IMG/VR virus record: IMGVR_UViG_3300011114_000369
Location: 1 to 23,444 of that record
Origin: a virus
Reading direction: 5' to 3' (one strand)
DNA: 23,444 nt
This document shows positions 6,245-21,027 of this stretch, piece after piece (position 1 is the stretch's first letter; the number at the start of each line of letters is the position of its first letter). A model generated the notes under the pieces. The model was given only the letters and a program-made list of their open reading frames with translations, searched no databases and was not told the DNA's origin. The translations under genes and the position numbers were made by a program.

Positions 6245-6565
6245 ATGGCAGATATATCAATGTGTACAAATCAATTTTGCAAATCTAAAGATTATTGTTA
6301 TAGATTTACTGCAACACCGAGTAAATTTAGACAAGCATATGAAGATTTTACTTGTGAGGATGATGAAATAAATTGCTCATACTTTTGGGCAAATGGTATT
6401 GACTCTATCAAATGTAAATTAGGCGGAGTTAAACGTGATGGCGAAATATGCAATTTAGATTACTGTACTTATCCTAAATGCATACAAGATAAATATTGTC
6501 CTAAATGTCATCAAACAAATGGAGTTCATAAAATGGGATGCGAAACAAGAAAAATAATAATATGA
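6245..6565 (+). CDS. Cys-rich putative zinc-binding protein
   Basis: 106 aa with 12 cysteines (7, 12, 18, 37, 44, 57, 69, 74, 79, 85, 88, 99). The N-terminal block (1-50) has the CxxxxC...C pattern around MCTNQFC that I associate with small accessory proteins of Bacteroidota phages. The C-terminus CPKCHQTNGVHKMGC (85-99) looks like a zinc knuckle or ribbon with histidines at 89 and 95. Two metal sites are plausible. No catalytic motif is seen. The next gene starts with an ATGA overlap at 6562. Function unknown. Confidence 0.7.
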   Translation: MADISMCTNQFCKSKDYCYRFTATPSKFRQAYEDFTCEDDEINCSYFWANGIDSIKCKLGGVKRDGEICNLDYCTYPKCIQDKYCPKCHQTNGVHKMGCETRKIII

Positions 6566-6738
6566 CACCAAAAGAAAAAGCAAAAGAGTTAGTTCGCAAA
6601 TATTGGGATTTAGGAGGGATTGATATTCCAAAAGCTCAAAAATGTGCATTAATAGCAGTTGATGAAATATTAGAACATTGTTATGAAGTGATGAAACCAT
6701 TTTGGCAAGAAGTTAAACAAGAAATACAAAAATTATGA
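6562..6738 (+). CDS. Small helical hypothetical protein
   Basis: 58 aa starting MTPKEKAKELV. A longer start at 6538 (66 aa) is possible, but it would overlap the previous gene by 28 bp and add only MRNKKNNN. The ATG at 6562 gives the ATGA overlap that most neighbours show, so I prefer it. Predicted two helices, with a central ALIAVDEILEH helix. A common type of small protein in flavobacterial prophages with no known role. Ends with another ATGA overlap at 6735. Confidence 0.65.
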   Translation: MTPKEKAKELVRKYWDLGGIDIPKAQKCALIAVDEILEHCYEVMKPFWQEVKQEIQKL

Positions 6739-7064
6739 GTGGAGGACATTGGGAATATATACAGTATAGATTTACTGATATAGCTGAAGACATAGATAAG
6801 CTAGTTGAACAAAACGGAAAACTTAAATCTGAAGAAGAATTAAAAGAAAATAGTTGGCATGATGATGATTGGTATAATAAATATCCTGAAGATAGATATT
6901 ACTATGAATATCCTAAAGAAGCTATTGAAGAATTTAAAAAAGCTGCCGATGCTATTAGACTAGCTCAAGTCTATATACAAAGAATGGATTGGTTACTATC
7001 AGGAGATGATGGAGAAGAATCGTTCTTAAAAAGATTAGAAGAAGAACTTAACGAATTAAAATAA
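6735..7064 (+). CDS. Hypothetical protein starting MSGGH
   Basis: 109 aa, acidic, with clustered Trp/Tyr (WHDDDWYNKYPEDRYYYEYP, 41-60) and a long C-terminal helix (63-109). The opening MSGGHWEYIQYRFTDIAEDI resembles a small uncharacterised family found in many phages. Coupled to the preceding gene by ATGA. Function unknown. Confidence 0.7.
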   Translation: MSGGHWEYIQYRFTDIAEDIDKLVEQNGKLKSEEELKENSWHDDDWYNKYPEDRYYYEYPKEAIEEFKKAADAIRLAQVYIQRMDWLLSGDDGEESFLKRLEEELNELK

Positions 7065-7068
7065 AAAT

Positions 7069-7359
7069 ATGGCAATAGGTAAAGAATTAAGTCCGATATT
7101 AGAAGAAATTGAAAATACATTATTAGATAATATAGCATTAAAACCTGAATATACAAAAGAAGGATTTAGAGCAGCAATATTTATATTTCAATCAGCAATT
7201 TCTGATAAAATGTTTGAATTACAAACAAAAGAAAAGATGTCTAATAAAGATAGCGAATTAATGGCTAAAAACTTAGGAGAAGAATTAAGGAATCTTATTG
7301 GTAGATTTACAGGAATAGACACACATAAATTATTTTCAGATGAAGGTGCAAAGGTTTAG
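7069..7359 (+). CDS. Hypothetical helical protein
   Basis: 96 aa, mostly alpha-helical by residue pattern, with no recognised motif. The start follows 4 bp after the previous stop with an AAAAAT leader. Overlaps the next small gene (7340) by 20 bp. Function unknown. Confidence 0.65.
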   Translation: MAIGKELSPILEEIENTLLDNIALKPEYTKEGFRAAIFIFQSAISDKMFELQTKEKMSNKDSELMAKNLGEELRNLIGRFTGIDTHKLFSDEGAKV

Positions 7360-7459
7360 TAATATAGTAAGAATTAAAAGAGTAATGAAATTCTATTATA
7401 ATCGTGGTGTAAACTCTGAAAGAATAAATAATTTATATCGTAAAATACTAAATGGATAG
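7340..7459 (+). CDS. Very small basic protein (39 aa)
   Basis: An ATG at 7340 opens a 39-codon frame, MKVQRFSNIV to RKILNG, ending at TAG 7457-7459. It is strongly basic (about ten Arg/Lys). It fills the gap between the 96-aa gene and the next small frame, overlapping both (20 bp and 8 bp), which is the usual packing here. No family recognised. It could be noncoding, but without it this stretch would be an unusual gap. Confidence 0.45.
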   Translation: MKVQRFSNIVRIKRVMKFYYNRGVNSERINNLYRKILNG

Positions 7460-7631
7460 TATTGAATCAATGATTTGTATTGTTCAACTTTATATTTTTT
7501 ACACTAAGAATGTTGAAGTAAATATAAAAGTAAATACCTTTGAAGAAATAAAAAAATTAAAACAAGCTCACATAATTGCAAAGGAATATTTAACATTTTA
7601 TAATATGCAAATCATTGAAAGAAATTTGTAA
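7452..7631 (+). CDS. Small hypothetical protein (59 aa)
   Basis: The ATG at 7452 opens a 59-codon frame, MDSIESMICIVQLYIFYTKN to MQIIERNL, with TAA at 7629-7631. The N-terminal half is hydrophobic, the C-terminal half an amphipathic helix. It overlaps the previous small frame by 8 bp and the sigma-like gene by 17 bp. Translation running into that overlap could help initiation at the TTG of the sigma-like gene. Function unknown. Confidence 0.5.
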   Translation: MDSIESMICIVQLYIFYTKNVEVNIKVNTFEEIKKLKQAHIIAKEYLTFYNMQIIERNL

Positions 7632-8136
7632 ACAACATAATCGCTGGATAAATATAGTTAAGCAATTTGGAATTACAGATTTTGCAGAGGATGTTGTGCA
7701 AGAAGCATATTTAAAATGCCTTGAAAAAGAAACAGTAAACGAAGCTTATTTTTATTTAACCTTGCGTAGTTTATCAATGGATCTTCACCGTAAACAAAAA
7801 CAGATTATAAAAGTTTCTATTGATGAAATTTTAGATAAATATGAAATGTCACAGAATTATCAAAATAAAACTGATGACAAAGAAATAATAAAAGAAATTG
7901 ATAATATATATTGGAATAATTGTATAAAGATTTTAAGTAATGAAATAACTTTAAGTAATGAAGTTTTAGAAATTGTAAATAATTTTCATTGGTTTGATAA
8001 AGAAGTATTTTATTTATATTATGATAATAAAATTTCAATGCGTAAAATAGCAGAAGAAACTAAAATAAGTTTAAGCACTATATTTAAAACAATTAAAGAA
8101 TGTAATTTAAAAATAAAAAAAGAATGGCAAAAGTAA
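7615..8136 (+). CDS. Sigma-70-like transcription factor
   Basis: 173 aa from a TTG start. The frame is closed by a TAA at 7591 and has no ATG before residue 55, so TTG is the best start. Residues 5-62 resemble sigma region 2: AEDVVQEAYLKC (24-35), then YFYLTLRSLSMDLHRKQ. Residues about 125-172 resemble the region 4 helix-turn-helix (DKEVFYLYYDNKISMRKIAEETKISLSTIFKTIKE). The linker is acidic and Asn-rich. Size and domain order match ECF-type sigma factors. Genes of this kind are often found just before the terminase in Bacteroidota phages. It may direct host RNA polymerase to the ACGTTATATA late motif. A DNA-packaging helper using its HTH is the alternative. It overlaps the next gene by 13 bp. 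Confidence 0.72.
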   Translation: MKEICKQHNRWINIVKQFGITDFAEDVVQEAYLKCLEKETVNEAYFYLTLRSLSMDLHRKQKQIIKVSIDEILDKYEMSQNYQNKTDDKEIIKEIDNIYWNNCIKILSNEITLSNEVLEIVNNFHWFDKEVFYLYYDNKISMRKIAEETKISLSTIFKTIKECNLKIKKEWQK

Positions 8137-10434: not shown

Positions 10435-10440
10435 TGCAAT

Positions 10441-10470
10441 ACAAAAAACAATTAAATACGTTATATAATT
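10441..10470 (+). promoter_or_regulatory. Late-promoter-like motif, copy 1 (ACGTTATATA)
   Basis: ACGTTATATA at 10458-10467, 3 nt (att), then ATG at 10471. ACAAAA lies at 10441-10446, 17 nt upstream of the 10-mer's first base. The same 10-mer with the same 3 nt spacing precedes the ATGs at 17735 and 20683. It lies in the 36 bp gap after the large terminase. Confidence 0.65.
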
Positions 10471-11157
10471 ATGAAAATTAAAATATCAATTCCTACTTCT
10501 TTAAATGAAATTACTTTGGAGCAATACCAAAGATTTATTTCTATAGCAGAAAAGAACGAGGACAACAATTTTCTGCAGTTAAAAATGCTGGAGATATTCT
10601 GCGGTGTTTCTTTAGAGATAGCCTCTAATATGTCCTTAAAAGATGTAAACGAAATAACTGCAAGTATTAATGAAATGTTTGCTAAAGAATATAAATTACA
10701 AACTATTTTTAAATTAGCAGATACTAACTTTGGATTTATTCCAAACTTAGACGAAATATCTTTAGGTGAGTTTACTGATTTAGATAATTACTTTGGTAAA
10801 ATGGATAAGTTGCATAATGCAATGGCAGTTTTATATAGACCTATAATTGATAAGTTTAGAGATAAATATAGCATACAAGATTACAACGGTAGTATAACCT
10901 ATTGCGATGTAATGAAGTCGATGCCAATGGATGTAGTTTTTGGAGCAATGGTTTTTTTTTACAATTTAAGCAACGAATTACTAATCAGTTCAATGAATTA
11001 TTTGGAGCAGAATCCACAGGTGAAAGCTTTAATCGACAAGCACAATTCGGAGCTAAGTGGGGATGGTATTCATCTTTCTATGCTCTCGCTCAAGCTGATG
11101 TTAGAAGATTTGATGAAATTTCAAAACTTCAACTTATTACAGCACTCACGTTCCTAA
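10471..11157 (+). CDS. Tail assembly chaperone, zero-frame product (gpG-like)
   Basis: 228 aa. It begins IKISIPTSLNEITLEQYQRF and contains a GFIPNLDEISLGEFTDLDNY segment, a pattern I know from a conserved Bacteroidota phage family. It is the first gene after the terminase and ends in a region overlapped by a second, -1 frame. A G-T9 run (10951-10960) places a T_TTT_TTT slippery heptamer at 10953-10959. This is the hallmark of tail assembly chaperones (lambda G/GT), which coat the tape measure and recruit tube subunits. Residues 1-163 are shared, and 164-228 are unique to this form. Preceded by the ACGTTATATA motif. Confidence 0.75.
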   Translation: MKIKISIPTSLNEITLEQYQRFISIAEKNEDNNFLQLKMLEIFCGVSLEIASNMSLKDVNEITASINEMFAKEYKLQTIFKLADTNFGFIPNLDEISLGEFTDLDNYFGKMDKLHNAMAVLYRPIIDKFRDKYSIQDYNGSITYCDVMKSMPMDVVFGAMVFFYNLSNELLISSMNYLEQNPQVKALIDKHNSELSGDGIHLSMLSLKLMLEDLMKFQNFNLLQHSRS

Positions 11158-11213
11158 CATTTGAAAAGGAAAAAATAGAAATAGAACAATCAATGCTCAA
11201 AAAAAATGAATAA
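10471..11213 (+). CDS. Tail assembly chaperone, -1 frameshift product (gpGT-like)
   Basis: Predicted join 10471-10959 with 10959-11213. After TTT (10957-10959) the ribosome slips back one base and reads TTA CAA TTT. The product has 163 shared residues plus 84 new ones, 247 aa. The extension contains FGAKWGWYSSFYALAQADVR and RFDEISKLQLITALTFLTFE, a clear folded helical domain rich in Trp and Phe, unlike random frame shadow. Its own ATG at 10902 would give a 103-aa protein, but the first 19 codons of that lie behind the slip site and look non-natural. The extension overlaps the next gene by 8 bp. I see no strong stem-loop after the slip site. Confidence 0.7.
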
Positions 11214-11667
11214 TTACTACAAGATTACAGAGGATATTAGAGATGAACTTTTAAGAGATGCTATTATAAATAACGTTTCACAAGGAGATATATTTAATAT
11301 TGATATAAGCAAAACAACTATATTCCCTTTAGCTCACATAGTAGTTAATACTGCTGTACAATCTGAATCTGGGAACACAAATATTTTTAACGTTTCAGTT
11401 TTATTTATGGATGTTTGTGATATTTCAAAAGCAAATCCTTACGATTTATTTTTTGACAATGATAACGAGCAGGATATATTTAATTCTCAATTTGAGTTAG
11501 CAAATAGGTTTTTAACTTCTTTACGTAGAGGTAATTTATACGATAAAAATTATAGACTAAATGGAACTGCAAACTTTGAAGCATTTAGTGATAGGTTTGA
11601 AAATAAAATTGTAGGCTGGACTTTAACTTTTGGAATTGAAAGTAATAACGATATGACAATTTGTTAA
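11206..11667 (+). CDS. Putative tail terminator/completion protein
   Basis: 153 aa. Pattern: N-terminal helix (6-22), strands FPLAHIVVNTAV and NIFNVSVLFMDVCD, a helix QDIFNSQFELANRFLTSL, then strands to VGWTLTFGIES. This alpha-beta-beta-helix-beta order and size match gpU-like tail terminators, which cap the tail tube. The assignment is by secondary-structure reading and by position beside a gp10-like neck gene, not by a signature motif. ATG overlaps the chaperone extension by 8 bp; the next gene starts immediately after the stop. Confidence 0.42.
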   Translation: MNNYYKITEDIRDELLRDAIINNVSQGDIFNIDISKTTIFPLAHIVVNTAVQSESGNTNIFNVSVLFMDVCDISKANPYDLFFDNDNEQDIFNSQFELANRFLTSLRRGNLYDKNYRLNGTANFEAFSDRFENKIVGWTLTFGIESNNDMTIC

Positions 11668-12207
11668 ATGGTTAATTTAGAACATACACAAAAAACACTT
11701 GAAAAATTTAGAGATTATGTGATCCAACAATCACGTAGTAACTTAACTAAAAGTGATAAGAACGTTTCTAAGAAGCTATATAATGAAATTAAAGGTAATG
11801 TTAAGGTAAGTCAAAATAGTTTTCAATTAGGTTTTGAAATGCCAATTTACGGACAATTTCAAGATAAAGGAGTAAAAGGTAAATTTTCAAGTTTTAAAGC
11901 TCCTAATAGTCCATTTAAGTTTGGAACAGGAACAGGATTGAAAGGTGGATTAACAAGAGGAATTGAGAAATGGGTTCAAGCAAAACGTTTTCAATTTAAA
12001 GATAAAAAGACAGGTAAATTTATGAGTTATAAAAATACTGCTTTTTTAATTAGTCGTAGTATTTATATAACAGGAATAAGACCAAGTTTATTTTTTACTA
12101 AACCATTTGAAGCAGGTTATAAAAAATACATTGATGAAGATTTAATAAAACAATTTGCATTGGATGTTGAAGATTTAATGCAATACACACTAAAAGATAT
12201 AAAATAA
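11668..12207 (+). CDS. Putative neck/tail-completion protein (HK97 gp10-like)
   Basis: 179 aa, basic. The segment MPIYGQFQDKGVKGKFSSF (64-82), followed by a Gly/Lys-rich loop and then AFLISRSIYITGIRPSLFFTKPFEAGYKKY, resembles the HK97 gp10/tail-completion family: a conserved 'Y-x-x-F/Y-x-D/E-x-G' near the middle and a 'G-I-x-P-x-x-F-F' near the end. Such proteins join head and tail. Starts directly after the previous stop and ends in a TAATG overlap with the next gene. Confidence 0.5.
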   Translation: MVNLEHTQKTLEKFRDYVIQQSRSNLTKSDKNVSKKLYNEIKGNVKVSQNSFQLGFEMPIYGQFQDKGVKGKFSSFKAPNSPFKFGTGTGLKGGLTRGIEKWVQAKRFQFKDKKTGKFMSYKNTAFLISRSIYITGIRPSLFFTKPFEAGYKKYIDEDLIKQFALDVEDLMQYTLKDIK

Positions 12208-13286
12208 TGGAAAGATTTAACGCAAGAAGTCCGTATATAATAGAAGTTGATGGAGATAATGCACAAGTAGCAACAAGATTAGTTTTAAATATCTATTCTC
12301 AATTAGGATATTTATTAAAAACTTATACTATTGATAAAAAAAGATTTTCAGCAACACAAAGTACAAACTTTTATAATATAAGTCCTTATGCTTATGATTT
12401 ATTAAATACTATTGATGAAAATAATTTTGCAGTTGTAATAGAATGGAATTCATATTATACAACTGATGGAACTAATTATATTTCTTATGGTAATCATATA
12501 TTAGTTGCTACAAGTGGTTATTCAGATTATAATAATCCAAACTATTTGCAAATTGCAAACTTTATTCCATTATTAAAAGAAGTTTCTTATACTTTAAATT
12601 ATGATAGAACTTTAACATATCCTACTGCAGATTTTGCTTTTGATTTTATAGGAAATAGTGATGCATATTATTATAAAATTTCTAATGGAAGTACTTTTTA
12701 TACTGAAAATATTCCAAATAATGGTTCTTATAATTTTTTTAGAATACCATTAACTATTAGTGGAAGTGCATATTCAGAAAAAAATGTATTTAATATTTTT
12801 AGAGTTGATGAAGGTGAACCTGTTAAGATTTTTCAATTAAATTTAGTAAATCTTTGTGAGTCAAAATATAATCCTATAAAATTAGATTTTATAAATAGAT
12901 TAGGAGGTAAGCAATCAATGTATTTCTTTAAAAATTCAACTCAATCTATAGAAGTTAAAAGTTCAGAATATAACACTAATACTTTTGATGGTGGTTATCC
13001 AATATACAACGGGTTTTTAGGTCAAAAAAGAATTTACAATAAAAATGGAACTAAAACTATTAAATGTAATTCTGGTTGGATTAATGAAGTAGAAAATGAA
13101 AACATACAAGATATAATGTTATCCGAAAACTTACTTTTAACATACGATGAAGAAGGAACTACATTAACTAAAGCAGTTACTTTAAAAAGTAGTTCTCAAC
13201 TATTTAAAACGCATTTAAACGAGAAAGTAATTAATTACGAGTTAGAGTTTGAGATAGCAAGTGCATTAATAAACAACGTAGTATAA
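12207..13286 (+). CDS. Structural protein, probable tail tip/baseplate component
   Basis: 359 aa, rich in beta strands, Tyr, Asn and Ser. The C-terminal half (about 210-350) contains KLDFINRLGGKQSMYFFKNS, then YNKNGTKTIKCNSGWINEVENENIQDIMLSENLLL and a final strand-rich segment. I recognise this as a conserved but unassigned Bacteroidota phage structural protein. Coupled by TAATG overlaps to both neighbours, just before the 761-aa protein with which it probably assembles. The N-terminus could carry a fibronectin- or Ig-like sandwich. No enzyme motif. Confidence 0.55.
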   Translation: MERFNARSPYIIEVDGDNAQVATRLVLNIYSQLGYLLKTYTIDKKRFSATQSTNFYNISPYAYDLLNTIDENNFAVVIEWNSYYTTDGTNYISYGNHILVATSGYSDYNNPNYLQIANFIPLLKEVSYTLNYDRTLTYPTADFAFDFIGNSDAYYYKISNGSTFYTENIPNNGSYNFFRIPLTISGSAYSEKNVFNIFRVDEGEPVKIFQLNLVNLCESKYNPIKLDFINRLGGKQSMYFFKNSTQSIEVKSSEYNTNTFDGGYPIYNGFLGQKRIYNKNGTKTIKCNSGWINEVENENIQDIMLSENLLLTYDEEGTTLTKAVTLKSSSQLFKTHLNEKVINYELEFEIASALINNVV

Positions 13287-15571
13287 TGACAAGCGTAGAA
13301 ATTTATATAAAAATAGGAACAGAGTTTAAAAGAATTGATTTATTTAAAGATGAAAAAATATCTCTTACTTCTTCTGTGCAAAATATTAATGATTTATCTA
13401 AAGTATTTACAGACTATACTCAATCATTTACTATTCCTGCTTCAAAGAATAATAATTTAATATTTAATTATTGGAATGAAAGCGGTATAAATGATGGATT
13501 TGATCAACGTATAAGATACGATGCAATAATAGAATTAAATACTATTCCGTTTAAAAAAGGACAGATACAGATTGAAAAATGTAACGAGAAAAATAATAGA
13601 ATTGAAAGCTATTCTATAACATTTTACGGAAAGGTTAAACAGTTAAAAGATTTATTTAAAGAGGATAAATTAACTAACTTAGATTATACTTCAATAACTC
13701 ACGCTTATAACGCTACAGAAGTTATAAATAGAATTGATAACACTACTAATGATAGTGTTTATTATCCTATTGTAGGTAACCAACATAAATATAGCTTTGA
13801 TGATGGTGGAGCAAATGATATTACAATTGGTGGTAGTTTAGCAAAATCTGTTGAATTTGATGATTTATTTCCTGCTATTCCTGTAAGTAAAGTATTTGAA
13901 TTTATAGAAAATAAATATAATATAACTTTTACAAGTAGTTTATTTGATACTTCTTATTGGACAGAACTTTATTTGTATTGTAAGAATATTGAAAAATTTA
14001 CTAACTATAGTAATGCAGTTGTAATTGATTGGAATAGTGTTAATAATACTTTTCCAGAATTAAATTTAACTACAAATAAATATTATTTAAAATGGACTTT
14101 TGCAGATAACACTACTAATGTTAGATACCAAAAAACAATAGTAGAAATTACTCCAACAAATGTAAATATTAAGTATAAATTAATAATGCGAATTTATGAC
14201 AATCCAGCTTTTGCAAATGGATCTATTTATAAAATATTTGATAATTTAATTGGTGTAAATTCATTATTAGTATTAGACACATTAAAAGAAGATAGCACTT
14301 TTGCAAATTATACTTTTGAAATACAAAGTGAAGAGTCAATGACTTTTGATGCAGAGATGTATAATATTAAATATGATAATACTTTGACTTATAATCAAGT
14401 TAGAATAGGTTATTCTGCAACAATGAATACGATAAGCAATGTTAATATTGGTGCAGTAGTTCCTGATATAAAAGTTGTAGATTTTTTTAATGGAATTATT
14501 AAATTATTTAATCTTACAATTATTGCTACTTCTGAAACTTCATTTAATCTTGAACCTTTAGAATTTTTCTATTCTTATGGTAAATATATTGATATTAATA
14601 ACTATGTTATTAATGATAGTGTAGATTTAGAACGTACTAAACTATTTAAAAAACTAACATTTACACACGAAAAATCTGAAAATGTAATAAACAATTTTTT
14701 TAGAAATACTTTTAATCGTGGTTTTGATTATGGTGATTTAATATATCAAGATGATCTTTCAAATGAAAGTGCAACTTATGAAATTAAAACTCCTTTTGAA
14801 GATGTAATGTGGGAAAAAACTACAGCATATGATTTTATAACTACAAGTTTAATAGATAAAGATTTAAAACCATATAAACCTAAGCCTGTGCTTATGTATA
14901 AAAATGGCTTAACAACATTAACAGCTGCTTTTAAAGTATATAATGGAAGTGGTTATACAAGCGTTTTAGATTATCAAAGATTTTCAAACGAATTATTTAT
15001 TAATAATGATATAGCAAGTTTAAACTTTACTGCAGAAAATTCAACATGGATAAACTCACAAACAGCAAATAACTCTTTATTTCAACTTTGGTATAAAAAC
15101 TATATATCGGCACTTTATGATATTCGTTGCCGAATTATAAAACTAAAAGCTATTATTCCTATTCCAATGTTATCAGATATTAAGTTAAATGACAAGCTAA
15201 TTTATAAAGATAAAAAATATATTATAAACACTTTTACAACTGATTTAACTACAGGAGAAGTTGATTTAGAATTGATAAGTGATTTTAGAGAATTACCATT
15301 AGTAGGCACTGGAAGGTTTGCTTTAAAATCTATTTTTAATATTGACAATACAGCACAAGATTTAGAAGTAACTATTTTAAAATTAAATGCTGGATATTAT
15401 GATGTTGAATATATGCCTACAAGTTATCTTTCTTCAAACAATTATATAGATGGAACATTTATAGTTCCAATAGATGCAAACACTACAGGAGATATTGCAT
15501 TTAAACAAATAGAAGTAACTTATCATAATCCAGATATAAAACAATACATAAATATTATTCAAGATGCTTAA
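13286..15571 (+). CDS. Large structural protein, probable tail hub/tip protein
   Basis: 761 aa. The opening DLFKDEKISLTSSVQNINDLSKVFTDYTQSFTIPASKNNN is typical of a conserved Bacteroidota phage tail protein. Composition is strongly beta and aromatic, with no transmembrane segment or catalytic motif. The middle, around PDIKVVDFFNGIIKLFNLTIIAT, resembles the hub fold of baseplate proteins. The last 80 residues (after about 680) read as a separate beta-sandwich ending QYINIIQDA, similar to the end of BACON-like domains, so host-surface or glycan contact is possible. TAATG overlap with the preceding gene. It lies upstream of the tape measure rather than downstream, opposite to most siphophages. 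Confidence 0.58.
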   Translation: MTSVEIYIKIGTEFKRIDLFKDEKISLTSSVQNINDLSKVFTDYTQSFTIPASKNNNLIFNYWNESGINDGFDQRIRYDAIIELNTIPFKKGQIQIEKCNEKNNRIESYSITFYGKVKQLKDLFKEDKLTNLDYTSITHAYNATEVINRIDNTTNDSVYYPIVGNQHKYSFDDGGANDITIGGSLAKSVEFDDLFPAIPVSKVFEFIENKYNITFTSSLFDTSYWTELYLYCKNIEKFTNYSNAVVIDWNSVNNTFPELNLTTNKYYLKWTFADNTTNVRYQKTIVEITPTNVNIKYKLIMRIYDNPAFANGSIYKIFDNLIGVNSLLVLDTLKEDSTFANYTFEIQSEESMTFDAEMYNIKYDNTLTYNQVRIGYSATMNTISNVNIGAVVPDIKVVDFFNGIIKLFNLTIIATSETSFNLEPLEFFYSYGKYIDINNYVINDSVDLERTKLFKKLTFTHEKSENVINNFFRNTFNRGFDYGDLIYQDDLSNESATYEIKTPFEDVMWEKTTAYDFITTSLIDKDLKPYKPKPVLMYKNGLTTLTAAFKVYNGSGYTSVLDYQRFSNELFINNDIASLNFTAENSTWINSQTANNSLFQLWYKNYISALYDIRCRIIKLKAIIPIPMLSDIKLNDKLIYKDKKYIINTFTTDLTTGEVDLELISDFRELPLVGTGRFALKSIFNIDNTAQDLEVTILKLNAGYYDVEYMPTSYLSSNNYIDGTFIVPIDANTTGDIAFKQIEVTYHNPDIKQYINIIQDA

Positions 15572-15716
15572 AAATATATTACAACTATTACAGTTACACG
15601 ATCATTATGGAATTTCTGAAAATATAGAAATTGCTAAAGGTAAAAATGAATTACCGACAACATTTAAAAAAGCTAAAACTCAACTTAAAAGAAATATAAA
15701 ATGGAGAACAAGGTAG
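15564..15716 (+). CDS. Small hypothetical protein between tail-tip and tape-measure genes
   Basis: An ATG at 15564 opens a 50-codon frame, MLKNILQLLQ to NIKWRTR, ending at TAG 15714-15716. It is basic in its C-terminal half and overlaps the preceding gene by 8 bp and the tape measure by 16 bp. It bridges a gap of about 130 bp that would otherwise be noncoding in a tightly packed region. No family recognised. Confidence 0.5.
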   Translation: MLKNILQLLQLHDHYGISENIEIAKGKNELPTTFKKAKTQLKRNIKWRTR

Positions 15717-17677
15717 TTAATATTGAAGTTAAACACAATTTAGATCAAACAACTGTATCTACAAATAAATTAGCTACTGGTTTAAAAGGTGCTTCAAATG
15801 CAACTACTGAATTAAGTGGTAAATCTGATGGATTGTCTAAACTACAAAGTGGTATTGATGCAGTAGGTGGAGCAGTTGGAGGTTTAAATCCTGCTTTTGG
15901 ACAAGCTATAAAAGGTTCAAATGGATTAATTTTAAAAATGTATGAATTAATAGCTAATCCAGTTGGAGCTGTTTTAGCTGCTATAGTAGTAACTTTAAAA
16001 TTTTTATACGAAGCATTTCAAAGTTCAGTTGCTGGTGGAAAAGAATTAAAAGCTGCATTTGCTGCAGTTTCTGCTATTGGTACACAAGTAAAAGATGCTG
16101 TTTTTGGTTTAGGTAGAGCATTAATTGATGTGGCTTCTGCTGCTTATAAGTTTATAACTTTAGATTTTAAAGGTGCAGCTGCTGATATGAAAAAAGCAAA
16201 TAAAGAAGCATCTGAATCATATAAACAATTAGGTAATGCAGTTGATGGAACTACTGCTAAAATAGCTTACAATTTAGAAAAGCAACAACAAGCAAATGAT
16301 AAAGCAAGAAAATTGCAAGCAGTTGTGCAATCTGAAACAAATAAATTATTAGTTCAATCACGTGAAATTTTAACAGATGAAACTGCTTCAATTAAAGATA
16401 AAAAGAAAGCATTAGAAGAAGTAACAAAAGCTGAAAAAGCTTCAAGTGCTGAAAAAGTTAGAATTGCAGCTGAAGATTTAAAAATAGCACAAGAAAAAGC
16501 TAAAATGTTAGGTGGCGAAGCTGAAAAAAAATCTAAACAAGAATTAAGAGATTTAACAGTTGCTTTAAATGAGGCTGAAACTGAAAATGCTATGACAGGC
16601 ATTAAGTTGAATAAGCAAAGAAAAATGCTTTTAAGACAAGAAACAGCAGATGCAAAAGAAGCAGCAGATGCACAAAAAGAAATATTAAAAACAAAATCAG
16701 AATCAGAAAAAACAGCATTAAAAGAAAAACAAGATAAGCAAAAAGCATCATTTGAATTAGAGAAATCTTTAGTTGAAGACCAATTAAAAAATACTAAAAT
16801 TTCTATTGATGAAAAAAGAAATATTGTTTTAAATGATAATAAACTTTCAAAAGCGGATAGGCAAAAGTTTTTAATTGATTTACAAAATCAAGAAATATTA
16901 GCAGAAGAAAATCATAATAAAGCTATTGCTGATTTAAATAAAAGATATGACGATGAAAAATTAAATCGTTTAGCAGATACAGCAGTAAAAAAAGAACAAC
17001 TTGACTATGATAAAAGACTTGCAGAAATAAATTCTATTGCACAAACTGAACTTGAAAAGCAAACTTTAATTGAAAAATTAGATGGTGAACATAAAGTTAG
17101 ATTAGCCGCAGCAACTAAAACAGATGCAGAAAAAAAATTAGCAGATGCAAAATTAATAGCAGATGCAGAATTAAAAATACAAGAATTAAAACAAGAAGGA
17201 CAAAGAGTTTTATTAGGTAAAAGTGCCGAAGTATTAGGAGCGTTTTCTGATATGTTAGGTAAAGAAACTGCAGAGGGAAAAACTTTAGCAATAGCACAAG
17301 CAACTATAAATGCTTACTTAGGCATATCCGAAGTTTGGAAAGCAAAAAACGTTTATCCCGAACCATTTGGCACTGGTATTAAAATAGCTTCTACAGTAGT
17401 AATGGCTGCATCTGCATTTAAAACAGTTAAGGATATTGCTGCTGTTCAAGTTCCTGGCGGTGGAGGTGGTGGTGGTTCTACTCCATCAATGGGAGGTGGT
17501 GCTTCTGCTCCTGCTGCACCTCAATTTAACGTAGTAGGTAATAGTGGAGTTAATCAAGTTGCAAACGTATTAAATAATCAAGGTATGCCACCAATTAAAA
17601 CTTATGTAACTGCAGGAGAAGTTACAACGCAACAAGGACTTAATAGAAATATAGTTTCTAACGCTACATTAGGCTAA
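15701..17677 (+). CDS. Tail tape measure protein
   Basis: 658 aa. Gly/Ala-rich N-terminus. A hydrophobic stretch, NPVGAVLAAIVVTLKFLY (86-103), could insert in a membrane or act in DNA ejection. Residues about 190-500 are a long Lys/Glu/Ala-rich coiled coil. Then come a compact segment (about 505-580), a Gly run (586-592) and a conserved-looking end (PQFNVVGNSG ... RNIVSNATLG) typical of Bacteroidota tape measures. At the usual 0.15 nm per residue the tail would be about 100 nm long. Preceded by tail-tip genes and followed by the head cluster. Highest Ala content of the window along with the scaffold gene. Confidence 0.85.
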   Translation: MENKVVNIEVKHNLDQTTVSTNKLATGLKGASNATTELSGKSDGLSKLQSGIDAVGGAVGGLNPAFGQAIKGSNGLILKMYELIANPVGAVLAAIVVTLKFLYEAFQSSVAGGKELKAAFAAVSAIGTQVKDAVFGLGRALIDVASAAYKFITLDFKGAAADMKKANKEASESYKQLGNAVDGTTAKIAYNLEKQQQANDKARKLQAVVQSETNKLLVQSREILTDETASIKDKKKALEEVTKAEKASSAEKVRIAAEDLKIAQEKAKMLGGEAEKKSKQELRDLTVALNEAETENAMTGIKLNKQRKMLLRQETADAKEAADAQKEILKTKSESEKTALKEKQDKQKASFELEKSLVEDQLKNTKISIDEKRNIVLNDNKLSKADRQKFLIDLQNQEILAEENHNKAIADLNKRYDDEKLNRLADTAVKKEQLDYDKRLAEINSIAQTELEKQTLIEKLDGEHKVRLAAATKTDAEKKLADAKLIADAELKIQELKQEGQRVLLGKSAEVLGAFSDMLGKETAEGKTLAIAQATINAYLGISEVWKAKNVYPEPFGTGIKIASTVVMAASAFKTVKDIAAVQVPGGGGGGGSTPSMGGGASAPAAPQFNVVGNSGVNQVANVLNNQGMPPIKTYVTAGEVTTQQGLNRNIVSNATLG

Positions 17678-17705
17678 AAATCAATTAGTTAAGTCCTATT
17701 TAGAA

Positions 17706-17734
17706 ACAAAACAAATAAATAACGTTATATAGAT
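17706..17734 (+). promoter_or_regulatory. Late-promoter-like motif, copy 2 (ACGTTATATA)
   Basis: ACGTTATATA at 17722-17731, 3 nt (gat), then ATG at 17735. ACAAAA at 17706-17711, 16 nt upstream of the 10-mer. It lies in the 57 bp gap between the tape measure and the first head gene. No terminator hairpin of note is seen in this gap. Confidence 0.65.
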
Positions 17735-18301
17735 ATGCAAATTTACGAATTAGTACTAAACAAAGAAACAGATGGAGTTGATGCAATAAGCGTTGTAGAT
17801 AGACCTGCTACAGAAGAAAACTTTATTGCATTAAAAGAACAACACGAAGTTAAACTTGCAGAGGTTGACACAGATAAAAGAATTTTAATGGGTGCTGCAT
17901 TAGTTCCTGATAAAATGATTTATCGTAAAAATGGTAAAGAAGAGTTTAACGTATTCTTTTCTAAGGATACAATTAAACAAGCAAGTGAGTTATTTTTAAT
18001 AAATGGCAATCAAAATAATGCAACGTTAATGCACGACAAAACTATAAGTGATATGTCTGTAGTTGAATCTTGGATTATTGATGATGCAGTTAATGATAAG
18101 TCTGTAAAATATGGTTTTAGTTTACCAATAGGAACTTGGATGATTTCAATGAAAGTTAATAACGAGGATATTTGGCAAAAAGTAAAAGCAGGAGAAATTA
18201 AAGGATTTTCTATTGAAGGCTATTTTGCTGATAAAGTACAAATGACTTCTAATAACAAAAAAATAATTGAACAACTAAAAGAATTATTAAATGGGAACTA
18301 A
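17735..18301 (+). CDS. Prohead protease (XkdF-like, S78-type)
   Basis: 188 aa. Candidate catalytic His100 in ATLMHDKT and Ser159 in GFSIEGYF, with conserved Glu111 in VVESWIID, match the XkdF/S78_2 herpes-like serine protease fold. The opening YELVLNKETDGVDAISVVDRPA (about 4-25) is the characteristic start of this family. It should cleave scaffold and capsid during head maturation. It is followed by a small Cys protein, scaffold and capsid, the classical order. Opened by the second ACGTTATATA motif. Confidence 0.85.
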   Translation: MQIYELVLNKETDGVDAISVVDRPATEENFIALKEQHEVKLAEVDTDKRILMGAALVPDKMIYRKNGKEEFNVFFSKDTIKQASELFLINGNQNNATLMHDKTISDMSVVESWIIDDAVNDKSVKYGFSLPIGTWMISMKVNNEDIWQKVKAGEIKGFSIEGYFADKVQMTSNNKKIIEQLKELLNGN

Positions 18302-18467
18302 AATAACAAGTCCTAAAGGCGGTAAAAGAGGATGCCTTTGTAAAGATGGAACTTATAAAAAAGAATGTTGCACAGGTGAATTAGATGCACAAGGGATTGG
18401 ATCATTAGTTGAACAAACTATAAACGTAGTTGTTAATACTAATATTGAAAGAGTAATTACTAATTAA
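18291..18467 (+). CDS. Small Cys protein of the head cluster (58 aa)
   Basis: The ATG at 18291, overlapping the protease by 11 bp, opens a 58-codon frame: TSPKGGKRGCLCKDGTY (6-22), then ECC (25-27) and DAQGIGSLVEQTINVV. Cysteines at 15, 17, 26 and 27 form a tight cluster that could bind zinc. I recognise the GGKRGCLCKDGTY pattern from other Bacteroidota phages in the same position between protease and scaffold, so the gene is real though its role is unknown. Confidence 0.72.
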   Translation: MGTKITSPKGGKRGCLCKDGTYKKECCTGELDAQGIGSLVEQTINVVVNTNIERVITN

Positions 18468-18473
18468 TTAAAT

Positions 18474-18998
18474 ATGTACAAAAATGTCCTTAACAACGTG
18501 AAGCATTTACTTTCTATGGAAGTTAAGCTTGCACAACAAACGCTAATGGATGGTGTTACTACCATTGAAGCGGAAGAGTTTGCTCCTGATTATTCAGTTG
18601 GTATAGTAACTCCAGATGGTGTTATTCCAATGCCAGTTGGTGAATATACTACAGCAAACGGAGAAGTTATTGTAGTTGAAACAGAAGGAATAATTGCTTC
18701 TATAGCTCCAGCAATGGAAGAAGCACCAGCTCCAGAAGTTCCTACAGAAGCAGCAGCTACAGCTAAAAAAGTAGTTGAAACTGTATCTAAAGAAACTTTC
18801 TTTGCTATGGTTGAAAAAACTACAGAATTACAAGCAGAGGTTGAAAGATTGAAAGTTGAATTAGCAAGTAATGCACCTGCAGCAGCTCCAATTTCTCACA
18901 ATCCAGAAAATGTAGTTGAAAAACAAAATTTTCAAATTGGAGCAAAAAGAGAAAGAACTACTGAAGATGTTGTTTTCGCAAAATTATTTAAAAAATAA
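18474..18998 (+). CDS. Putative head scaffolding protein
   Basis: 174 aa. Residues 18-80 (KLAQQTLMDGVTTIEAEEFAP, then GIVTPDGVIPMPVGEYT) form a small beta-rich domain. A Pro/Ala/Glu linker (82-100) follows, then a coiled coil (about 105-132, ETVSKETFFAMVEKTTELQAEVERLKVEL), another Ala/Pro linker, and a basic end (KRERTTEDVVFAKLFKK). Coiled coil plus basic tail between protease and major capsid is the pattern of scaffolds, whose C-terminal end binds the coat. An alternative is a minor capsid or decoration protein based on the N-terminal domain. Confidence 0.6.
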   Translation: MYKNVLNNVKHLLSMEVKLAQQTLMDGVTTIEAEEFAPDYSVGIVTPDGVIPMPVGEYTTANGEVIVVETEGIIASIAPAMEEAPAPEVPTEAAATAKKVVETVSKETFFAMVEKTTELQAEVERLKVELASNAPAAAPISHNPENVVEKQNFQIGAKRERTTEDVVFAKLFKK

Positions 18999-19026
18999 AT
19001 TAACTAACTAAAAAAAATTAAAAAAA

Positions 19027-19989
19027 ATGGCTACAACGCTTTCATTAACAACAACTTATGCAGGTGAATTCGCTTCCAAATATGTGGCGGCTGCATTACT
19101 TTCTTCTCCAACTATCGAAAACGGTGGTATTGAAGTATTACCAAACGTAAAATACAAACAAGTTTTACAAAAAATTGCTACTGATGGTTTATTAAAAGAT
19201 GCTACTTGTGATTTTACTTCAACTTCTACAGTTACTTTAACTGAAAGAGTTTTGACTGTAAAAGATTTACAAGTAAATTTAGAATTATGTAAAAAAACTT
19301 TCCACACAACTTGGCAAGGTATTGAGCAAGGATATTCATCTTTTGATGTATTACCTCCATCTTTTCAAGAATACTTAATTGGATATGTAGCTTCTAAAGT
19401 TGCCGCACAAAATGAGGTTTCAATTTGGAATGGTGCTACAGGTACAAGTGGACAATTTGATGGTTTAGTAACTAAAATTGCTTTAGATGCTGGTTTACCA
19501 ACTGCACAAGAAATTGCTGCTACTTCTACTAATATTACTGCTGCTTCAACAGTAATTACTGAATTAGGTAAAATAGTTGATGCAATTCCTGCTACACTTT
19601 ATGGTAAAGAAGATTTGTATTTATATGTTTCACAAGCAACTGCTCGTGCTTATGTTCGTGCTTTAGGTGGATTTGGAGCTTCTGGATTAGGTGCTAATGG
19701 TACTAATACAATGGGTACACAATGGTATAACAATGGAAGTTTAACTTTTGATGGAGTTAAAATATTTGTTGCTAATGGATTAAATGCAACTCAAGCAGTA
19801 GCAACTACAAAATCTAACTTGTTTTTTGGACTTTCTTTAAACTCTGATATGCAAGAAGTAAGAATTATAGATATGGCAGAAACTGACGGATCAAACAATG
19901 TAAGAATTGTTATGAGAATGGCTGCAGGTGTTCAATATGGAGCAATCGAGGATATTGTAACTTACGGAATTACAAACTCTGCTAACTAA
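19027..19989 (+). CDS. Major capsid protein
   Basis: 320 aa, Ala/Thr/Gly-rich with few charges, following protease and scaffold. The segment TWQGIEQGYSSFDVLPPSFQEYLIGYVASKVAAQNEVSIWNG includes the long spine-like helix expected of an HK97 fold. RAYVRALGGFGASG and the ending RMAAGVQYGAIEDIVTYGI fit the A-domain and P-domain strands. The A-only leader (19012-19027) suits high expression in Bacteroidota. A strong terminator follows at 20006-20040, consistent with the most abundant transcript of the region. Confidence 0.85.
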   Translation: MATTLSLTTTYAGEFASKYVAAALLSSPTIENGGIEVLPNVKYKQVLQKIATDGLLKDATCDFTSTSTVTLTERVLTVKDLQVNLELCKKTFHTTWQGIEQGYSSFDVLPPSFQEYLIGYVASKVAAQNEVSIWNGATGTSGQFDGLVTKIALDAGLPTAQEIAATSTNITAASTVITELGKIVDAIPATLYGKEDLYLYVSQATARAYVRALGGFGASGLGANGTNTMGTQWYNNGSLTFDGVKIFVANGLNATQAVATTKSNLFFGLSLNSDMQEVRIIDMAETDGSNNVRIVMRMAAGVQYGAIEDIVTYGITNSAN

Positions 19990-20005
19990 TAGCAAAAATA
20001 ATTAA

Positions 20006-20040
20006 AAAAAAGGTGGTGCAATAAACGCCACCTTTTTTAT
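20006..20040 (+). terminator. Intrinsic terminator after the major capsid gene
   Basis: GGTGGTG (20012-20018) pairs with CGCCACC (20026-20032), loop 7 nt, one G-U pair. The stem extends by A6/T6 (20006-20011 with 20033-20038). The T run makes it a strong rho-independent terminator. The A tract allows weak function in the other direction. Confidence 0.9.
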
Positions 20041-20064
20041 TATTAATCATTAAAAAAATATACT

Positions 20065-20595
20065 ATGGCTTGTGATATTTCATTAGGAAGAATTGAACCT
20101 TGTAAAGACTCGGTAAGCGGTCTTAAGAATTGTTATTTTGTGAACTTTGGTAAAATTACTGGAGTTACTTATAATGCGACAAATACAGATGTAATTGATG
20201 CAGTAACAGGAACTTCTTTAAATGCTTACAAATACGAATTGAAAGGAACAAATAGTTTAGACCAAACTATTACTTCTTCAAGAGAAAACGGAACTACTTT
20301 TTTTGAGCAAAGTTTAAAACTAAACTTAAAAAAATTAACTGCTGTAGATCATAAACAAATTAAACTTTTAGCTTATGGACGACCACAAGTAATTGTTGAA
20401 ATGAATAATGGAAATTTATTTCTTTGCGGTTTAGAGTATGGAATGGAATTAACTACAGGTTCTATAACTTCAGGTACTAATTTAGGTGATGCTTCTGGTT
20501 ACGTTTTAGAGTTTAAAGGAATGGAAAAAGTACCTGCTAACTTTATTGGAGTATCTTTAGCTACTGCAGGATTTACAGTTGTATCTGGTTCATAA
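20065..20595 (+). CDS. Probable major tail tube protein
   Basis: 176 aa. It begins MACDISLGRIEPCKDSVSGLKNCYFVNFG and includes SSRENGTTFFEQSLKLNLKKL and LLAYGRPQVIVEMNNG. This is a conserved structural family of Bacteroidota phages with the beta-barrel-like strand pattern and size of siphophage tail tube subunits. It lies between two strong terminators (20006 and 20616), so its mRNA level can be set apart from its neighbours, as expected for a protein made in hundreds of copies. A promoter is not obvious in 20041-20064. It may depend on read-through from the capsid gene. Confidence 0.62.
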   Translation: MACDISLGRIEPCKDSVSGLKNCYFVNFGKITGVTYNATNTDVIDAVTGTSLNAYKYELKGTNSLDQTITSSRENGTTFFEQSLKLNLKKLTAVDHKQIKLLAYGRPQVIVEMNNGNLFLCGLEYGMELTTGSITSGTNLGDASGYVLEFKGMEKVPANFIGVSLATAGFTVVSGS

Positions 20596-20615
20596 TTGTT
20601 TTTTCATATTGTTTT

Positions 20616-20645
20616 AAAACCTCACTTTAATAGTGGGGTTTTTTT
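20616..20645 (+). terminator. Intrinsic terminator after the tail tube gene
   Basis: AAAACCTCACT (20616-20626) pairs with AGTGGGGTTTT (20632-20642), 11 bp with one T-G pair and a 5 nt loop, ending in a T run (20639-20645). It resembles the terminator at 1173 (AAAACCC...GGGGTTTT). Confidence 0.9.
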
Positions 20646-20652
20646 ATTAAAA

Positions 20653-20682
20653 ACAAAATCATAACATTTACGTTATATAAGT
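20653..20682 (+). promoter_or_regulatory. Late-promoter-like motif, copy 3 (ACGTTATATA)
   Basis: ACGTTATATA at 20670-20679, 3 nt (agt), then ATG at 20683. ACAAAA at 20653-20658, 17 nt upstream of the 10-mer. It directly follows a strong terminator, so the portal block needs a new promoter here, which strengthens the promoter reading. Confidence 0.7.
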
Positions 20683-21027
20683 ATGATAATTTTAAAAGAT
20701 TACACATTTACGCAAAATTTTAAGTTTATGCCACGAAGTACAAATATAGCTTCAATGGTATTTACTGATGAATTAACAAACACTGCAACAACAATAAATA
20801 ATCCTACTTTAGTAACAGAGTTGTATTATGTTAAATTTGCATCTAATAGAACTTTTAGTTTTTTAATTGATGGACACACTTATATATTGAATTGTTTTGA
20901 CTCAAATGGAGTTCCTTTGTTTAGAGATAAGATTATGTGTACAAATCAAGTTATAAAAGATTATACAATTAATAATGGTGATTACGTAGCAAACACTACA
21001 ACCAACGAATATGTAATTTATGAGTAA
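20683..21027 (+). CDS. Conserved hypothetical structural protein before portal
   Basis: 114 aa, beta-rich: strands around FKFMPRSTNIASMVFTDE, LYYVKFASNRTFSFLIDGHTYILNCF and LFRDKIMCTNQVIKDYTINNG. This small family is familiar upstream of portal genes in Bacteroidota phages, without known function. Opened by the third ACGTTATATA motif. Overlaps the portal gene by 8 bp, so the two are likely translated together. A head or connector accessory role is a guess from position only. Confidence 0.62.
   Translation: MIILKDYTFTQNFKFMPRSTNIASMVFTDELTNTATTINNPTLVTELYYVKFASNRTFSFLIDGHTYILNCFDSNGVPLFRDKIMCTNQVIKDYTINNGDYVANTTTNEYVIYE

Follow-up and report, generated by a model that had tools for sequence, protein, structure and literature searches.

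We analyzed a stretch of virus DNA of 23,444 nucleotides (IMG/VR record IMGVR_UViG_3300011114_000369, positions 1 to 23,444; hereafter the window), in which an identical decamer, ACGTTATATA, stands directly before the start codons of three genes that open structural gene blocks. The three sites are best read as late promoters of the extracytoplasmic function (ECF) type that are probably recognized by a phage-encoded sigma factor and that would start transcription at the start codon itself, a combined reading to which we assign a probability of about 0.77. The sites share a bipartite element that is conserved among relatives, is located at the heads of operons, and keeps a fixed geometry relative to the start codon, and most relatives whose flanking sequence is long enough have a sigma factor gene. 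From these features we infer that the phage sigma factor recognizes the promoters, that transcription starts at the exact base proposed, and that translation is leaderless, and the structural genes downstream suggest that the promoters are used late.

In the proposed mechanism, the ECF-like sigma factor would be expressed from the final part of the early/middle block, and the host core RNA polymerase carrying this sigma factor would probably recognize the three late promoters. Each of these would consist of a -35 AAC(AAA) box, a spacer of 15-17 nt, a -10 box of the form CGTTATATA, and a T(-1)A(+1) initiator. The first transcribed base would be the A of each ATG, and the tail-block, prohead-protease/capsid, and pre-portal/portal mRNAs would be leaderless, with a 5'-AUG.

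Three bipartite elements and their conservation

The window record is an incomplete virus contig, and the counts of the decamer refer to the window only. The exact decamer occurs there three times, each time on the + strand and each time ending 3 nt before an ATG (ACGTTATATA-N3-ATG; Table 1), as had been claimed when the sites were first noticed; there is no further exact copy in the window, and a reversed-pattern control gave 0 matches. An ACAAA(A) box begins 17, 16, and 17 nt upstream of the decamer at sites 1, 2, and 3, in agreement with the ACAAAA box previously described at 16-17 nt. The earlier assignment of these two boxes to about -30 and -7 is replaced here by an ECF-type pair, AAC in the -35 box and CGTT in the -10 box. 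The spacer between AAC and CGTT is N15/16 in the window and in most relatives, and the class as a whole (N15-17) has the arrangement of ECF promoters, in which AAC in the -35 box and CGT(T/C) in the -10 box are ∼15-18 nt apart. The sites are also distinct from the host TAnnTTTG/TTTG pattern, as proposed before, since TAnnTTTG, the -7 box of the Bacteroidota primary sigma factor, is absent from the 90 nt upstream of the three window ATGs. A scan of the window for the sigma-70 consensus gave no excess over shuffled sequences.

When one mismatch or fewer is allowed, 6 decamers are found in the window (G+C content 28%) against 3.5 expected from shuffles. This is not an enrichment, so the case rests on the exactness of the three copies, their identical spacing to the ATG, and their conservation. 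A one-mismatch search of the kind proposed in the original prediction thus showed no excess in the window; among close relatives, the motif is kept before the same genes.

The relatives comprise 24 IMG/VR loci collected through the protease and additional loci collected through the terminase and the protein encoded at 10471. When protein identity to the window is at least ∼77%, the box is kept before the same three genes. In a clade with 45-68% protein identity, the box is CGTTTATA, and the C of its CG is again 12 nt upstream of the ATG. The ATG is at CG+12 in 37 of 42 and 32 of 36 unique sites in these two groups, with most of the remainder at +13, and their combined consensus is [A/T]ACaAAA-N15/16-CGTT(A)TATA. 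Other lineages contain variants of this box, such as AGTTATATA with the ATG at 14 (L024) or [A/G]GTTATA(A) (L095-L108). Three loci (L005, L014, and L020) retain the box before the next gene although their terminase is only 32-36% identical to that of the window.

The same range of large terminase identity was observed in L030, and in all four of these loci neighboring genes are up to 99% identical to those of the window; L030 also contains a ParB/methyltransferase-like gene at 11378-12664. This pattern suggests gene replacement in the packaging module. A relative of the window capsid protein (50% identical) is found in a Woesearchaeota metagenome-assembled chromosome (CP070803, L144), which probably contains a mis-assembled or mis-binned piece of phage DNA.

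Table 1. Predicted promoter elements, transcription starts, and associated features of the window
Feature	Position	Strand	Basis
-35 box, late promoter 1: TACAAA (TAC-N16-CGTT)	10440-10445	+	Sequence; conserved in relatives
-10 box, late promoter 1: ACGTTATATA, C of CGTT at 10459	10458-10467	+	Sequence; relatives
Predicted transcription start 1, A of ATG, T at -1	10471	+	Y11R12 initiator analysis
-35 box, late promoter 2: GAAACAAAA (AAC-N15-CGTT)	17705-17710	+	Sequence; conserved in relatives
-10 box, late promoter 2: ACGTTATATA, C of CGTT at 17723	17722-17731	+	Sequence; relatives
Predicted transcription start 2, A of ATG	17735	+	Initiator analysis
-35 box, late promoter 3: AACAAA (AAC-N16-CGTT)	20652-20657	+	Sequence; conserved in relatives
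-10 box, late promoter 3: ACGTTATATA, C of CGTT at 20671	20670-20679	+	Sequence; relatives
Predicted transcription start 3, A of ATG	20683	+	Initiator analysis
Phage ECF-like sigma factor (sigma2 + sigma4), TTG start, proposed late-promoter reader	7615-8136	+	Profiles, model, relatives
Gene opening tail block (first called tail chaperone; phrog_32199)	10471-11157	+	Profile matches
Prohead protease, XkdF-like, opening head block	17735-18301	+	PF14550, E = 2.6e-18
Small gene preceding portal-like gene (21020)	20683-21027	+	Position; conserved from residue 1
Terminator-like hairpin followed by a T tail, shortly before promoter 3	20616-20642	+	Sequence

The identities first given to the block-opening genes were partly upheld. 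The protease assignment is supported by its profile match, and the third gene, whose product has no family match, does precede a portal-like gene; the tail chaperone assignment is unproven, as the protein encoded at 10471 matches a family of unknown function (phrog_32199) and, weakly, a tail protein family (phrog_166). An open reading frame (ORF) with a TTG start at 10902-11213 overlaps the 3' part of this gene in another frame and may encode the second portion of a tail assembly chaperone produced by frameshifting. The strong terminator said to precede one of the copies corresponds to the terminator-like hairpin upstream of promoter 3.

A phage sigma factor as the candidate reader

The original prediction named no protein that would read these promoters and overlooked the gene for an ECF-like sigma factor, which is now the likely reader. 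This gene is situated between the early genes and the terminase gene, upstream of the latter, and encodes a product of 172 amino acids. A profile built from 25 homologs of this protein had ECF SigW as its best hit in the PDB (E = 3.6e-5). The AF2 (AlphaFold2) model has a pLDDT of 79.5 and two confident helical domains, as predicted for an ECF-like fold with sigma2 and sigma4 only. When this model was used as a Foldseek query, the top hits were ECF sigma factors, just one of them with E<0.001, and region 4 aligned with the sigmaE-DNA complex 2h27 with a TM-score of 0.79. Region 4 of sigmaE reads GGAAC. The TTG start of the sigma ORF is inside the end of an upstream ORF (7452-7631), an arrangement that is kept in L029 and L030 and that suggests translational coupling of the two.

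Co-occurrence of the sigma gene with the promoters was assessed in 65 loci that have at least 5 kb of sequence upstream of the 10471 homolog. A sigma homolog is located no more than 8 kb upstream of that gene in 51 of these loci, and in five others (L124, L126, L129, L130, and L132) it lies farther away, at the upstream extreme of the locus. In three relatives (L029, L030, and L034), the promoter occurs a fourth time, before a homolog of the gene at 7069 and at the head of the operon that includes the sigma gene, which suggests positive feedback. The window does not have this fourth copy, and two small genes (6538-6738 and 6735-7064) occupy its place. A tblastn search of cultured phage records with the window sigma factor and one distant sigma factor gave no match, and the tie of gp33 of the cultured Nonlabens phage P12024S to this sigma family comes solely from an iterated profile search and from its position.

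Several observations weigh against the reading of these sites as near-leaderless promoters served by the phage sigma factor. The best-scoring model for the protein, TIGR02937 (sigma70-ECF; E = 2.5e-9), gives 37.0 bits, which is below its curated cut-off of 42.9, and the protein also falls under the curated thresholds of sigma-70 families. The domain arrangement in the AF2 model is uncertain (pTM 0.38). No sigma hit was obtained in 9 of the 65 loci that have a 10471 homolog and enough upstream sequence, and the sigma factor is linked to the promoters by co-occurrence and family geometry. The homologous sites of relatives are not independent of each other; the counts share descent, and p-values derived from them overstate the significance. 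Last, sister clades (L112, L114, L120-L132, and L021) contain an AT-rich box that lacks CG, followed by an A-rich leader of ∼10 nt between the predicted start and the ATG, and still hold the ACAA-type upstream box. Loss of the motif by relatives that keep the ATGs had been named as a refuting case; close relatives keep the motif and these clades diverge, which indicates that the near-leaderless state would apply to most lineages, not all.

A host ECF sigma factor could read the same boxes, with the same promoters and the same leaderless or near-leaderless starts, and the phage sigma factor could have another role. In favor of this, the -10 box of flavobacterial ECF promoters (Flavobacterium psychrophilum, SM6 class) is a CGT box, and seven ECF sigma factors are encoded by F. 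psychrophilum (PMC9723704). However, most phages that contain the box keep the sigma gene between the early genes and the terminase gene, and in some relatives the sigma operon has the same promoter, so we consider recognition by a host sigma factor unlikely.

Position of the transcription start

To compare start positions between lineages, bases were numbered with the C of CGTT as 0. Among 288 unique sites, the ATG is at +12 in 185, at +13 in 82, at +14 in 2, and at +15 in 10. When the ATG is at +12, base 11 is a pyrimidine in every case (185/185; T in 183). In the sites with the ATG at +13, +14, or +15 (n = 94), base 11 is still a pyrimidine in 71, compared with 12, 21, 24, and 4 sites with a pyrimidine at bases 12, 10, 9, and 8, respectively. 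All 10 of the +15 sites have Y11R12 (for example, ACGTTATATAGAT|AGT-ATG), and some +13 sites (AAAT-ATG) appear to be shifted by one. Because the pyrimidine stays at base 11 when the ATG moves, it is tied to the -10 box and not to the start codon. The same preference is seen at base -1, which is T in 102 of 104 real sites against 14 of 28 and 14 of 40 in controls (IMG/VR, among the matches listed), and in 45 of 56 sites in the set of relatives against 378 of 1179.

The usual initiator is a Y(-1)R(+1) step. Given the conserved Y11R12, this would place +1 at base 12, so that the predicted first base of the transcript is the A at CG+12. In the window, this base coincides with the first letter of each ATG. 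Agreement comes from the geometry of ECF promoters, in which a GGAAC with its C at -31 and a spacer of N17-18 before cGTT would put the C of CGTT at -12/-13 (PMC10012870). On our best reading the mRNAs would be leaderless, or would have a leader of 1-3 nt in some relatives, and the -10 box is located at the fixed ∼10-12 nt from the start codon that is characteristic of leaderless genes. The lock between ATG and box and the fixed initiator support the earlier proposal that transcription would start at or next to the A of the ATG, and the conserved bipartite box, present before operon-head genes only, supports the proposal of a phage-specific late promoter class.

Among the sites examined, the predicted leaders are 0-3 nt or ∼9-13 nt long, with none of 4-8 nt. 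A similar gap is known from Lactococcus, in which leaders of 4-14 nt are reported to be absent (PMC10986495). We treat the gap seen here as a lead only, because part of our sample was selected by spacing.

It is improbable, at somewhat longer odds than recognition by a host sigma factor, that these are ECF promoters whose transcripts begin further downstream or at several dispersed positions, so that the 5' end would not coincide with the ATG in use, with translation from an internal start codon or, after the shift, from a leadered mRNA. Some copies do contain two in-frame ATGs (CGTTATATGAGTATG), but the proteins are conserved from residue 1, the YR initiator is fixed at CG+11/+12, and ECF geometry predicts a start ∼12-13 nt past the C of CGTT (PMC10012870). 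In addition, in all three window ORFs an in-frame stop precedes the ATG by 5-7 codons and no ATG, GTG, or TTG intervenes, so that the ATGs at 10471, 17735, and 20683 are the first possible start codons. The second in-frame ATG of CGTTATATGAGTATG is at CG+6 and was observed upstream of the protease gene in L006, L007, L010, and L015-L019; if transcription starts at CG+12, it would be upstream of the start and never transcribed.

Shine-Dalgarno pairing is rarely used in Bacteroidota, where A-rich starts are preferred. The decamer might therefore be considered as a signal for translation initiation in the mRNA, a Shine-Dalgarno substitute, with transcription starting further upstream. The fixed distance to the ATG and the reported absence of Shine-Dalgarno sequences (PMC9723704) would fit such a role. 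It does not account for the co-conserved second box 16-17 nt further upstream at promoter-like spacing, or for the restriction of the element to operon-head genes, one of them right after a terminator. Moreover, the distance to the start codon varies by lineage and CG+11/+12 stays constant; we reject a translation signal, which we regard as very improbable, because the initiator follows the -10 box when the ATG moves.

Breadth of the class and comparison with known systems

The extent of this class was examined by motif scans of IMG/VR, which give lower bounds only and whose counts are those among the matches listed. The pattern ACGTTATATA-N3-ATGA opens an ORF of at least 70 amino acids at 117 of 136 sites, compared with 45 of 121 when the spacing is N6 and 43 of 119 for the reversed decamer. 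Loci with multiple sites numbered 14 for N3, 1 for N6, and 0 for the reversed decamer, and 100 of the 120 ORFs of at least 50 amino acids behind N3 sites encode homologs of the three window proteins. The difference between the N3 scan and its controls shows that the class reaches well beyond close relatives. This predicted promoter class is shared by a large group of marine and freshwater Bacteroidota viruses.

The class is also found in cultured phages. Nonlabens phage P12024S has 7 sites of the form AAC-N16/17-CGTTA (167, 3019, 5400, 21269, 23949, 25189, and 26790) before annotated coding sequences, with the CG 12 nt before the annotated ATG at 6 of them and 11 nt at 1, and P12024L has the same seven sites. 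A Markov simulation of P12024S predicts 1.1 hits to the loose pattern per genome and 0.01 with the ATG at +12. The seven copies are mutually non-homologous and precede unrelated genes, so the lock to the start codon does not derive from shared ancestry of one site. Riemerella phage RAP44 has a terminase 48% identical to that of the window, neither the sigma factor nor locked sites, and thus the terminase alone is no predictor of the system. The terminase of OQ791282 (Shigella phage Henu10) groups with Riemerella phage terminases and has the same 48.3% identity to the query, and the host label of this record may be wrong.

Similarity by chance or shared ancestry without function, as might be expected from the frequency of AT-rich decamers at 28% G+C and from the lack of enrichment of the one-mismatch decamer, is refuted by the seven non-homologous P12024S copies and the control scans and can be virtually dismissed.

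On balance, we favor the broader view that in widespread Bacteroidota phages the whole late program depends on an ECF-type phage sigma factor whose promoters are fused to the start codon, with each late polycistronic mRNA beginning at its AUG or no more than 3 nt from it. If this is true, late translation would move to the leaderless pathway, which could favor late messages on ribosomes altered by infection. It would provide a readable late-gene signal for a large, mostly uncultured group of phages, in which late operons and promoters could be called from sequence, and it would connect a phage sigma factor with the genes that it probably controls. It also predicts leaderless major structural operons in hosts that make few leaderless mRNAs (5.5% in F. 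psychrophilum (PMC9723704), and ∼3.7% with leaders <10 nt in Bacteroides thetaiotaomicron (PMC7366714)). The cultured phages P12024S and P12024L make this prediction directly testable, and lineages with leaders of 1-3 or ∼10 nt would be a natural series for the study of leaderless translation without Shine-Dalgarno pairing.

Leaderless mRNAs, ECF promoters, and phage sigma factors are each known; among open-license papers, we found none that describes a phage whose late operons all have the start codon fused to the promoter. The sites resemble (group 4) ECF promoters in the AAC of the -35 box, the 15-17 nt to CGTT, and a predicted start ∼12 nt past the C. Comparable elements are GGAAC-N16-18-CGTT, or GGAAC(N)-N16-CGTT, in the mapped SigH/SigE promoters of Corynebacterium glutamicum (PMC10012870) and AAC/CGTT in EcfG promoters (PMC8103513), and single ECF promoters with leaders of 0-1 nt are known (clgR P1 and cg3344 (PMC10012870)). 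Unlike known ECF promoters, those described here are phage-borne, have no GG before the AAC, contain an extended AT-rich -10 box (CGTTATATA, CGTTTATA, or CGTTAATA), and, at essentially all sites, keep the start codon in a fixed position relative to the promoter.

Phages T4 (gp55) and SPO1 (gp28 and gp33/34) encode sigma factors that serve late transcription. The system proposed here would, like these, redirect the host RNA polymerase to phage-specific late promoters, whereas its sigma factor is small, two-domain, and ECF-like, with an AAC/CGTT promoter. Late mRNAs of T4 and SPO1 have leaders.

As in the leaderless genes of Actinobacteria and Deinococcus, which have a TA-like -10 box ∼10-12 nt before the start codon (PMC3160421), and as in lambda cI, the fixed distance between box and start codon implies an mRNA that begins with AUG. 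The boxes of Actinobacteria and Deinococcus are TANNNT elements of the housekeeping sigma factor scattered in genomes, whereas those reported here would form the regulon of an alternative sigma factor. The late promoters of jumbo phage AR9 (AACA-N6-TA/G) are read by a phage multisubunit RNA polymerase and give 5' untranslated regions of 26-491 nt (PMC5312081). The present class resembles that of AR9 in having a short phage-specific late consensus and a predicted start at a fixed purine, and it differs in its proposed use of the host core RNA polymerase and in mRNAs that would begin at, or within a few nucleotides of, the AUG.

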